From NCBI RefSeq assembly GCF_029910535.1, contig NZ_CP069362.1, positions 310,001-374,000 of the forward strand: a stretch of 64,000 nucleotides of DNA. The letters are read 5' to 3'. Position 1 is the stretch's first letter. The number at the start of each line of letters is the position of its first letter. Shown here piece by piece: positions 31,040 through 34,008 of this stretch. The translations under genes and the position numbers were made by a program. This DNA is from Marinitoga aeolica (GTDB lineage Bacteria > Thermotogota > Thermotogae > Petrotogales > Petrotogaceae). The notes beneath the pieces were generated by a model. That model made no database searches. It was not told the origin of the DNA and saw only the letters and a list, made by a program, of their open reading frames with translations.

Positions 31040-31068
31040 TTGACTAATTGAAAAAATAATGTTATAAT
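31040..31068 (+). promoter_or_regulatory. Promoter for the tRNA-Gln/Trp/Lys cluster
   Basis: TTGACT (31040-31045), 17-base spacer, TATAAT (31063-31068), 12 bases before tRNA-Gln. It may also supply transcripts for infC downstream. Confidence 0.85.
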
Positions 31069-31079
31069 ACTATCTGTCT

Positions 31080-31153
31080 TGGGAGGTCGTCTAATGGCAG
31101 GACAGCGGACTCTGGATCCGCCGATGGAGGTTCGAGTCCTCCCCTCCCAGCCA
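31080..31153 (+). tRNA. tRNA-Gln (anticodon CUG)
   Basis: Acceptor TGGGAGG/CCTCCCA, anticodon stem GCGGA/TCCGC around loop CTCTGGA, anticodon CTG at 31112-31114, T loop GTTCGAGTC, encoded CCA. The weak U1-A72 pair is typical of glutamine tRNA. Confidence 0.96.
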
Positions 31154-31161
31154 ATAATAAC

Positions 31162-31237
31162 ACGCCTGTAGCTCAATTGGTAGAGCGGCGGTCTCCAAAA
31201 TCGCAGGCTGGGGGTTCAAGTCCCTCCGGGCGTGCCA
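31162..31237 (+). tRNA. tRNA-Trp (anticodon CCA)
   Basis: Acceptor ACGCCTG/CGGGCGT, anticodon stem GCGGT/ATCGC around loop CTCCAAA, anticodon CCA at 31195-31197, encoded 3' CCA. Confidence 0.96.
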
Positions 31238-31247
31238 TATTTAGTGT

Positions 31248-31323
31248 GGGCCATTAGCTCAGCTGGTAGAGCGGCTGACTCTTAATCAGTAGGCCGTGGG
31301 TTCGAATCCCGCATGGCCCACCA
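31248..31323 (+). tRNA. tRNA-Lys (anticodon CUU)
   Basis: Acceptor GGGCCAT/ATGGCCC, anticodon stem GCTGA/TCAGT around loop CTCTTAA, anticodon CTT at 31281-31283, encoded CCA. Confidence 0.96.
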
Positions 31324-31350
31324 GTTTTTGGACATTTGTTTATGTGAAAA

Positions 31351-31454
31351 GCGGAAGCCACCCAGTTGCTTCCCACCTCGGGTAGTTTAGCCGTCAGGGG
31401 TTTTAAGATTAATGGGAAATACTTGGGTGGAGTTTACTCCACCCATTTTAATTT
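31351..31454 (+). promoter_or_regulatory. Structured leader with competing hairpins and terminator upstream of infC
   Basis: A GC-rich stretch between tRNA-Lys and infC. CCACCCA (31358-31364) can pair with TGGGTGG (31424-31430), with an inner stem TTCCCA (31370-31375) / TGGGAA (31413-31418). The same TGGGTGGAG (31424-31432) also forms a perfect 9-bp hairpin with CTCCACCCA (31437-31445) followed by TTTTAATTT, a terminator. Upstream, GGAAGC (31353-31358) can pair with GCTTCC (31368-31373), trapping CCACCCA in its loop. Such three-way competition is the layout of an attenuator controlling IF3-L35-L20 expression. I do not recognise an Rfam family. Confidence 0.6.
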
Positions 31455-31468
31455 ATATATTTATTGTT

Positions 31469-31489
31469 TTCTACACTATAGGTGTAGAA
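31469..31489 (+). repeat. Hairpin just upstream of the infC ribosome-binding site
   Basis: An 8-bp perfect inverted repeat (TTCTACAC / GTGTAGAA) with a 5-base loop ends 7 bases before AGGAGGG. It could be part of the translational operator for this operon. Confidence 0.6.
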
Positions 31490-31508
31490 AAGAACAGGAG
31501 GGATAAGT

Positions 31509-32033
31509 ATTAAGAAATCAAAAGATACAACATTGAGAAACGAAGAGATTAGGGTGAAAGAAGTTAGGGTAATAGGAAAAAGTGGTGAACAATTAGGCAT
31601 AATGGAAACGAAAAAAGCTCTACAGATTGCTTATCAAGAAGGACTCGATTTAGTTTTGGTTTCGCCAAACTCTAATCCGCCAGTAGCTAAAATTATGGAT
31701 TTTGGAAAATACAGATACGAAAAAGAGAAGAGAGAAAAAGAAGCGAAAAAGAAACAAAAGAAGCAAATATTAAAAGAAATGAAATTTAGATTACGAATCG
31801 ACGAGCATGATTTTAACACTAAAGTGAGAAGAATTAGAACTTTTTTAGAGGATGGAAATAAGGTAAGAGTTGTGGTAATGTTTTTAGGTAGAGATATTAT
31901 GTTTACAGATAAAGGGAAAGAAATCTTAAATAAAGTTATTAAAAACGTTGAAGATATTGCTGAAGTGACAAGGGCACCTAAAATGGCTGGAAGAGATATG
32001 GATATGATTTTATCACCAAAAAATAAAAAATAA
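31509..32033 (+). CDS. infC: Translation initiation factor IF-3 (AUU start)
   Basis: 174 residues. The sequence KDTTLRNEEIRVKEVRVIG is the IF-3 N-terminus, with VSPNSNPPVAKIMDFGKYRYE and the C-terminal domain (FRLRIDEHDFNTKVRRIRTFL) following. I place the start at ATT 31509: AGGAGGG lies 6 bases before it, while TTG 31533 has no ribosome-binding site and would cut the usual N-terminus. AUU is the classical infC start and lets IF-3, which rejects non-standard starts, limit its own synthesis. Confidence 0.9.
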   Translation: MKKSKDTTLRNEEIRVKEVRVIGKSGEQLGIMETKKALQIAYQEGLDLVLVSPNSNPPVAKIMDFGKYRYEKEKREKEAKKKQKKQILKEMKFRLRIDEHDFNTKVRRIRTFLEDGNKVRVVVMFLGRDIMFTDKGKEILNKVIKNVEDIAEVTRAPKMAGRDMDMILSPKNKK

Positions 32034-32279: not shown

Positions 32280-32636
32280 ATGAGAGTAAAAAGAGCTGTT
32301 CATGCTAAAAAGAAAAGAAGAAAATATCTTAAAGCTGCTAAAGGTTATAGAGGGGCTCTAAGCAGAAGGTATGTTTTAGCAAAGCAACAATTCTTCAGAT
32401 CAGGAAAATATGCTTATGCTGGCAGAAAACAAAAGAAAAGAGATTTCAGAAGACTATGGATAACAAGAATTAATGCTGCAGCTAGAAATGAAGGCTTAAA
32501 ATATAATGATTTAATTCATGGCTTAAAATTAGCAGGTGTAAATATCAACAGAAAGATGTTATCTGAACTCGCAGTAAATGATTACGAAGCTTTTAGAGAA
32601 TATGTAAATATAGCAAAAGAAGCTTTATCTAAATAA
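32280..32636 (+). CDS. rplT: 50S ribosomal protein L20
   Basis: 118 residues with the L20 signature RKYLKAAKGYRGALSRRY and FRRLWITRINAAARNEGLKY. L20 is needed early in 50S assembly and in several bacteria represses this operon by binding its leader. Start ATG 32280 follows AAAGGAGAGAATATAG. A strong terminator follows. Confidence 0.97.
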   Translation: MRVKRAVHAKKKRRKYLKAAKGYRGALSRRYVLAKQQFFRSGKYAYAGRKQKKRDFRRLWITRINAAARNEGLKYNDLIHGLKLAGVNINRKMLSELAVNDYEAFREYVNIAKEALSK

Positions 32637-32760: not shown

Positions 32761-34008
32761 ATGGCAAAGAGAAAGAAAAAAGAAGAAAGTAACATTGAAA
32801 AGTTAGCAAAGTTAATAGCAAGGGATCCTGAAGTAAATACAATGAAAGATGTATATGATAAGATTAAAGAATTGATGGGACCAATAATACAAGAAATGTT
32901 AGAAGCTGAATTAGAAGATGAGTTAGGGTATGAGAAATACGATAAAGAAAATAAAGAAACAGATAATTCTAGAAATGGATACAGCTCAAAAAAGGTAAGA
33001 TCAAGTATGGGTGAGATGGAATTAAAAATACCCAGAGATAGAAAAGGGGAATATGAACCGAAAATAATACCAAAATATAAAAGAGATATTTCAGATATTG
33101 AAGGTAGAATAATAGGAATGTATGGTTTAGGATTAAGTACGAAAGATATAGCTAAGAATGTAGAAGATATATATGGAGTAGAATTATCAGCTGAAATGAT
33201 AAGTAAAATAACTAATAAGATATTACCCGAAATTAGAGAGTGGCAAAGCAGACCATTAGAAGAGATATATACTTTTGTTTTCATGGATGGAATAGTATTT
33301 AAAGTAAAAGATGATGGTGAAATAATTAAAAAGACTGCATATGTTGTAATAGGAGTAAATATTGATGGATTTAAAGAAGTCCTTGGTATATACATAGGGG
33401 AAATTGAATCATCAAAATTTTGGTTAAGAGTATTGAATGATTTAAAAAATAGAGGAGTTAAGGATATATTAATAGCTTCAGTAGATGGATTAACTGGATT
33501 TCCACAAGCAATTAAAGCTGCATTTCCTGATACTGTAGTACAAAGATGTATAATACATCAAATAAGAAATACATTAAAATATGTTAATTACAAAGATAGA
33601 AAGGAACTTGTAAATGATTTAAAAAAAGTATATAAAGCACCGAATAAAGATATAGCTTATTCAAATCTACAGGATTTAAAAGAAAATAAATGGACAAAAT
33701 ACAAATTAGCATTAGAAAGTTGGGAAAAACACTGGGAAACAATATCGCCATATTTTGATTATGGTGATGATGTAAGAAAAATAATGTACACAACAAATGT
33801 AATAGAATCATTGAATAGACAATATAGAAAAGTGACTAAAAATAAAACTTCATTTCCAAATGATGATGCATTATTAAAAATATTATATTTAGCAACAATA
33901 GATGCAACAAAAAGATGGACAGCTCGATATAGAAACTGGAGTAAAGTCCTAAACGAACTATCCATCTTTTTTAAAGAAAGAATAACAAAATACGTCTATA
34001 ATTCTTAA
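32761..34008 (+). CDS. IS256-family (mutator-like) DDE transposase
   Basis: 415 residues. The family pattern is intact: early ARNGYSSK-like SRNGYSSKKVRS, the first Asp in VFMDGIVFKVKDDG (about 178), the second in ASVDGLTGFPQAIKAAFP (about 240), QRCIIHQIRNTLKYV, and the catalytic Glu in TTNVIESLNRQYRKVTK (about 345). The frame is open from end to end, so the enzyme may be active. Codon use (many AGA, AAA, GAA) is like the host, so the element is adapted or old. Confidence 0.96.
   Translation: MAKRKKKEESNIEKLAKLIARDPEVNTMKDVYDKIKELMGPIIQEMLEAELEDELGYEKYDKENKETDNSRNGYSSKKVRSSMGEMELKIPRDRKGEYEPKIIPKYKRDISDIEGRIIGMYGLGLSTKDIAKNVEDIYGVELSAEMISKITNKILPEIREWQSRPLEEIYTFVFMDGIVFKVKDDGEIIKKTAYVVIGVNIDGFKEVLGIYIGEIESSKFWLRVLNDLKNRGVKDILIASVDGLTGFPQAIKAAFPDTVVQRCIIHQIRNTLKYVNYKDRKELVNDLKKVYKAPNKDIAYSNLQDLKENKWTKYKLALESWEKHWETISPYFDYGDDVRKIMYTTNVIESLNRQYRKVTKNKTSFPNDDALLKILYLATIDATKRWTARYRNWSKVLNELSIFFKERITKYVYNS

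Follow-up and report, generated by a model that had tools for sequence, protein, structure and literature searches.

A closely related system is the L20 leader of Bacillus subtilis (RF00558), located upstream of the infC-rpmI-rplT operon. In B. subtilis, L20 regulates this operon through a terminator that is stabilised upon L20 binding, and the L20 site is the junction between two hairpins, H1 and H2 (PMC6097659, PMC10931766). In the translational operator of the Escherichia coli rpmI-rplT genes, binding of L20 to an mRNA mimic of 23S rRNA represses L35 and L20 (PMC10931766). The E. coli operator acts on translation, involves a long-range pseudoknot and a hairpin, and leaves infC uncontrolled. 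An L20 motif in Thermotogales was reported in 2013, and its transfer from Firmicutes was proposed (Sun et al. 2013, PMC3766115). That paper treats the same motif family and the same bacterial group as the leader described here, and the passages considered contain neither an antiterminator analysis nor a tRNA linkage. The switch itself is therefore known in kind.

The leader studied here lies in the window, the whole stretch of 64,000 nucleotides of Marinitoga aeolica DNA that was analysed, and all features are on its forward strand. The leader as a whole (31343–31456) matches the Rfam family L20_leader (RF00558) with 41.9 bits (E-value 2.8e-7 in a short-region search), and the alignment spans the full length of the model, positions 1–127 of 127. 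The Rfam gathering score for this family is 58.7 bits. The leader falls about 17 bits short of this cut-off; standard scanning of the window therefore reports no hit at this place, and we name it a homologous, divergent L20 leader rather than a cut-off hit. RF00558 is the sole significant family on the leader. An unknown riboswitch or a 6S-like RNA, suggested by the G+C-rich core, was therefore rejected, and even with the threshold relaxed to E ≤ 5 the leader gave no match to a T-box family.

The comparison with the Bacillaceae supports this assignment. The B. subtilis leader precedes the same operon and has the same order of H1, H2, linker and terminator. The Bacillaceae leaders also share the AAG before H1, the GA...UC closing H1, the CACC starting H2 and the AGG on the 3′ side of H2, and the CACCC/ACCC loop of H1 in the B. 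subtilis-type leader is likewise complementary to the GGGUG of the terminator. In contrast, the letters of H2 differ from those of the B. subtilis type, and the score of 41.9 bits compares with 62.6–89.2 bits in 15 Bacillaceae loci. In one of the compared genomes, that of Sutcliffiella halmapala (L180:2740-3039), pieces of a group II intron were seen downstream of infC. Unlike the E. coli operator, the leader in the window precedes infC and ends in a terminator. It occupies the 5′ leader of infC-rpmI-rplT with no other gene between, it contains H1, an irregular H2, a linker and a terminator with covariation, and it can form antiterminator and terminator as alternative structures. The preliminary description had stated that the structure matched no recognised leader, which is contradicted by the significant full-length RF00558 match and by the Bacillaceae-like layout and conserved letters. 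Its hint at autoregulation by L20 was probably right. We conclude that the leader is a real regulatory element and, as judged from its sequence, a divergent member of the known L20 leader group. The region is very likely an L20-leader-type transcription attenuator controlling infC-rpmI-rplT.

The low score is not peculiar to this genome. Matches to RF00558 with E ≤ 1, at any genomic position, were found in 97 of 103 Thermotogota genomes, Thermotoga maritima giving the control match. Among the relatives, G041 reaches 58.7 bits and G002 57.8 bits. When 40 infC-leader loci were scanned directly, in two sets of 20, the match lay exactly at the leader with E ≤ 0.01 in 28. This pattern indicates that the window genome represents the normal case of a divergent branch. 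The Rfam cut-off misses the L20 leader in nearly all Thermotogota, with only one of the 103 genomes over it.

The pairings proposed in the preliminary description were recovered, with some extension. An invariant AAG (31349–31351), which is conserved in alignments A1 and A3 and in the RF00558 consensus, precedes H1 (31353–31373). In this hairpin, which matches hairpin 1 of RF00558 and would act as the anti-antiterminator, GGAAGC (31353–31358) pairs with GCTTCC (31368–31373) and encloses, as described, CCACCCA (31358–31364), which forms the end of the 5′ strand and the loop. The irregular hairpin H2 (31374–31401) follows, with an outer stem of ACCUC and GGGGU (31375–31379/31397–31401). By analogy with B. 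subtilis, H1 and H2 together form the presumed L20 binding site. The CCACCCA of H1 is complementary to TGGGTGG at 31424–31430, and the resulting antiterminator is longer than had been described: its 5′ arm (CCACCCAGUUGCUUCCCA, 31358–31375) overlaps H1, its 3′ arm (UGGGAAAUACUUGGGUGG, 31413–31430) contains the terminator 5′ arm, and the two arms of 18 nt are 78% complementary. Since the antiterminator also uses the 3′ strand of H1, the two structures truly exclude each other.

The second CCACCCA (31439–31445) forms, as proposed, the 9-bp terminator stem (31424–31432/31437–31445). The intrinsic terminator extends over 31424–31449 and a terminator hairpin is present in nearly all relatives; its loop is TTTA (UUUA in the RNA), followed by TTTTAATTTA. 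The T tract is short, consisting of four T (UUUU), then AATTTA. Of the dinucleotide shuffles, 1.45% showed Watson–Crick pairing of 7 bp or more between the terminator 5′ arm and the leader upstream of it. The fold of the whole leader, taken by itself, is no more than mildly unusual (z = −1.9). A further hairpin, which is AT-rich (TTGTTTTCTACAC/GTGTAGAAAAGAA, 31464–31494), immediately precedes the ribosome-binding site of infC. Comparable hairpins with other letters were observed in G003, G004 and G005, and are not evident in G001, G002 and G006 of the same genus.

Further support for the alternative pairings comes from the relatives. Of the 103 Thermotogota genomes, 99 yielded infC; we compared the DNA upstream and parsed 97 of the 99 leaders, leaving out one at a contig end (L111) and one with no clear H1 (L158). 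Because MAFFT alignments A1–A3 misregistered the terminators and the 3′ ends of H2, pairs were counted by a script with fixed anchors in place of a covariance model. All 97 parsed leaders contain H1, H2 and the terminator, together with a stretch that can pair with the terminator 5′ arm. Pairs 1–4 of H1 and pairs 1–3 of H2 are standard in every one of them, and pairs 4–5 of H2 in 94–95, shares that lean upwards because the partners were found by a complementarity-seeking script. For this reason, the two-sided exchanges and a shuffled control constitute the evidence for the two hairpins. Exchanges in H1 include G-C, A-U, C-G and U-A: pair 1 is either G-C or A-U, and pair 4 occurs as A-U, G-C, G-U, U-A or C-G. 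In the outer pairs of H2, A-U is replaced by G-C at pair 1, and C-G/U-A/A-U exchanges occur. An H2 of at least 5 bp is present in 95% of the leaders, compared with 7% when the downstream sequence is shuffled. The covariation on which the preliminary description had made its reading depend is present in the parsed leaders upstream of infC across the phylum.

The antiterminator itself is illustrated by concerted changes. The H1 loop and the terminator arm change together, as in CCACCC/GGGUGG, UCACCC/GGGUGA, GCGCCC/GGGCGC, CCGCCC/GGGCGG and CCAUUCG/CGAAUGG. The duplex between a leader's own core and its own terminator had a mean energy of −19.2 kcal/mol, compared with −15.0 (sd 0.29) for permuted pairs, and none of 1000 permutations among 84 distinct leaders was as low, a figure that overstates independence since the leaders share ancestry and that we take as support, not as a probability. 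In most families, the H1 loop region supplies the best contiguous partner of the terminator 5′ arm. This search has the correct register for family f5, in which the fixed anchor of the pair-counting script lies one position out and causes the mismatches counted there. In family f2, the role of antiterminator strand has passed to the 5′ strand of H2: the complementarity of the H1 loop is lost, and CCCGCC in the H2 5′ strand pairs with GGCGGG of the terminator (e.g., L091, L097 and L100). In 3 of the 16 leaders of this family, only a run of 4–5 bp was found. Together with the strand shift, these short runs indicate that the switch is not uniform.

It could be argued that the hairpin at 31424–31445 simply ends the tRNA operon constitutively, with some transcription running on into infC, and that its match to the upstream segment is incidental. 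The tRNA cluster with a strong promoter lying upstream would fit such an arrangement. However, a constitutive terminator would not need an upstream H1 and H2 that covary in every parsed leader; the upstream segment tracks the terminator arm, and the RF00558 match covers H1 and H2 as well as the terminator. We consider this explanation very unlikely.

Folding supports, at the level of predicted energies, a co-transcriptional switch in which the antiterminator wins before the terminator 3′ arm emerges and the terminator wins afterwards. For an RNA ending at 31430, constrained folding at 37 °C gave −25.1 kcal/mol for the antiterminator and −22.4 kcal/mol with H1 forced. At full length, H1 plus terminator reached −33.7 kcal/mol, compared with −29.5 kcal/mol for the antiterminator, and the order of the energies was the same at 55 °C. 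Folding and covariation together thus bear out the logic of attenuator, antiterminator and anti-antiterminator put forward earlier. We propose that RNA polymerase would start upstream of the tRNA cluster and proceed through tRNA-Gln, tRNA-Trp and tRNA-Lys into the leader. At low levels of free L20, 31358–31375 would pair with 31413–31430 once the latter emerges; the antiterminator would capture the terminator 5′ arm, and the polymerase would read into infC-rpmI-rplT. Excess L20 would bind the H1/H2 junction and keep H1 closed, leaving the terminator 5′ arm free for 31437–31445, and transcription would stop near 31449. Both the choice of L20 as the ligand and its favouring of termination are inferred from B. 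subtilis. By the same analogy, L20 probably switches off its own operon through the leader.

The region upstream of the leader contains three tRNA genes called by ARAGORN: tRNA-Gln(CUG) at 31080–31153, tRNA-Trp(CCA) at 31162–31237 and, directly before the leader, tRNA-Lys(CUU) at 31248–31323. They are preceded by a sigma-70-type promoter (31040–31068, TTGACT-17-TATAAT with an extended −10 and 11 of 12 consensus matches), which is likely the promoter of the whole unit of tRNAs, leader and operon. In 79 of 89 relatives, the 100 nt preceding the tRNA cluster contain a promoter match of at least 10/12, compared with 4% in shuffles. The last tRNA before the leader is tRNA-Lys(CUU) in 97 of 97 parsed Thermotogota leaders, including one at a contig end (L079) in which only the 3′ half of the tRNA is present, without an ARAGORN call, and whose junction position was taken from the sequence. 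The tRNAs upstream of tRNA-Lys(CUU) vary by family. In the Bacillaceae, in contrast, a tRNA was found within 1.5 kb upstream in none of 80 loci. The spacer between the tRNA 3′ end and the AAG/H1 measures 4–65 nt (median 14) in the 97 leaders, and a promoter-like site was found in none of these spacers. The leader is therefore probably transcribed from the tRNA promoter, and the L20 leader of Thermotogota seems in every case to form the tail end of a tRNA transcript.

Alternatively, infC might be expressed mainly from a promoter inside the leader or 3′ of the terminator, in which case the attenuator would hardly matter. A weak site, TTTACT-17-TATATT (9/12), does lie at 31433–31461; the shuffles predict a match of this kind by chance. 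Terminator and infC are only about 20–50 nt apart in many relatives, a distance that includes the ribosome-binding site, and, as noted above, the spacers on the tRNA side are all free of promoter-like sites. A main promoter at this place has, in our estimate, an even smaller chance than a constitutive terminator.

The genes that the attenuator would control follow directly. infC (31509–32033; TIGR00168, 201.4 bits), encoding IF3, starts with AUU (31509–31511) after AGGAGG, in keeping with the rare start codon of IF3, and apparent ATC, ATT or ATA starts were found in 95 of 99 relatives (AUC in 38, AUU in 30 and AUA in 27). rpmI (L35; 32052–32246) scores 38.6 bits against TIGR00001, below the NCBIfam cut-off of 51.2, and its position and length are normal. 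rplT (32280–32636; TIGR01032, 149.3 bits, cut-off 65.65) encodes L20, the presumed repressor. Directly 3′ of rplT, an open reading frame of 415 amino acids (32761–34008) resembles, by reading only, a mutator-type (IS256-like) transposase. That the same switch responds to IF3, L35, a small molecule or an uncharged tRNA instead of L20 is the least probable of the alternatives: infC is the first gene and a tRNA adjoins every parsed Thermotogota leader, but the core shows the conservation of an L20 leader, Rfam riboswitch and T-box families are unmatched near it, and control by IF3 is usually translational via the AUU codon, here present separately.

The formerly unrecognised leader is thus settled as an attenuator of the L20 type, and probably an autoregulatory one. 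The present analysis adds that such an attenuator precedes infC in every leader parsed in the phylum, that its antiterminator covaries, that one family has shifted the antiterminator strand into H2, that the Rfam cut-off fails on these leaders and that the junction with tRNA-Lys is conserved. In many relatives, loop and terminator arm change in lockstep, which provides clean comparative evidence for the antiterminator. In the open part of the searchable literature, we found no report of a tRNA linkage of the L20 leader, and the T. maritima transcriptome paper contains no passage on infC or attenuation. Since the attenuator lies behind the tRNA cluster in what is probably one transcript, we propose that it also forms the 3′ end of the tRNA transcript. 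A broader reading is tentative and rather unlikely to hold in full: throughout the phylum, the L20 attenuator might be the shared 3′ boundary of the tRNA-Lys(CUU) unit, with one promoter driving both the tRNA and IF3-L35-L20 and L20 deciding only the distal part. The 5′ end of the leader might then arise when the tRNA is processed, and maturation of tRNA-Lys might in this way be coupled to the switch. The arrangement of tRNA-Lys(CUU), L20 leader and infC, with its apparently promoterless junction, would join tRNA synthesis to a ribosomal-protein operon in one transcript.
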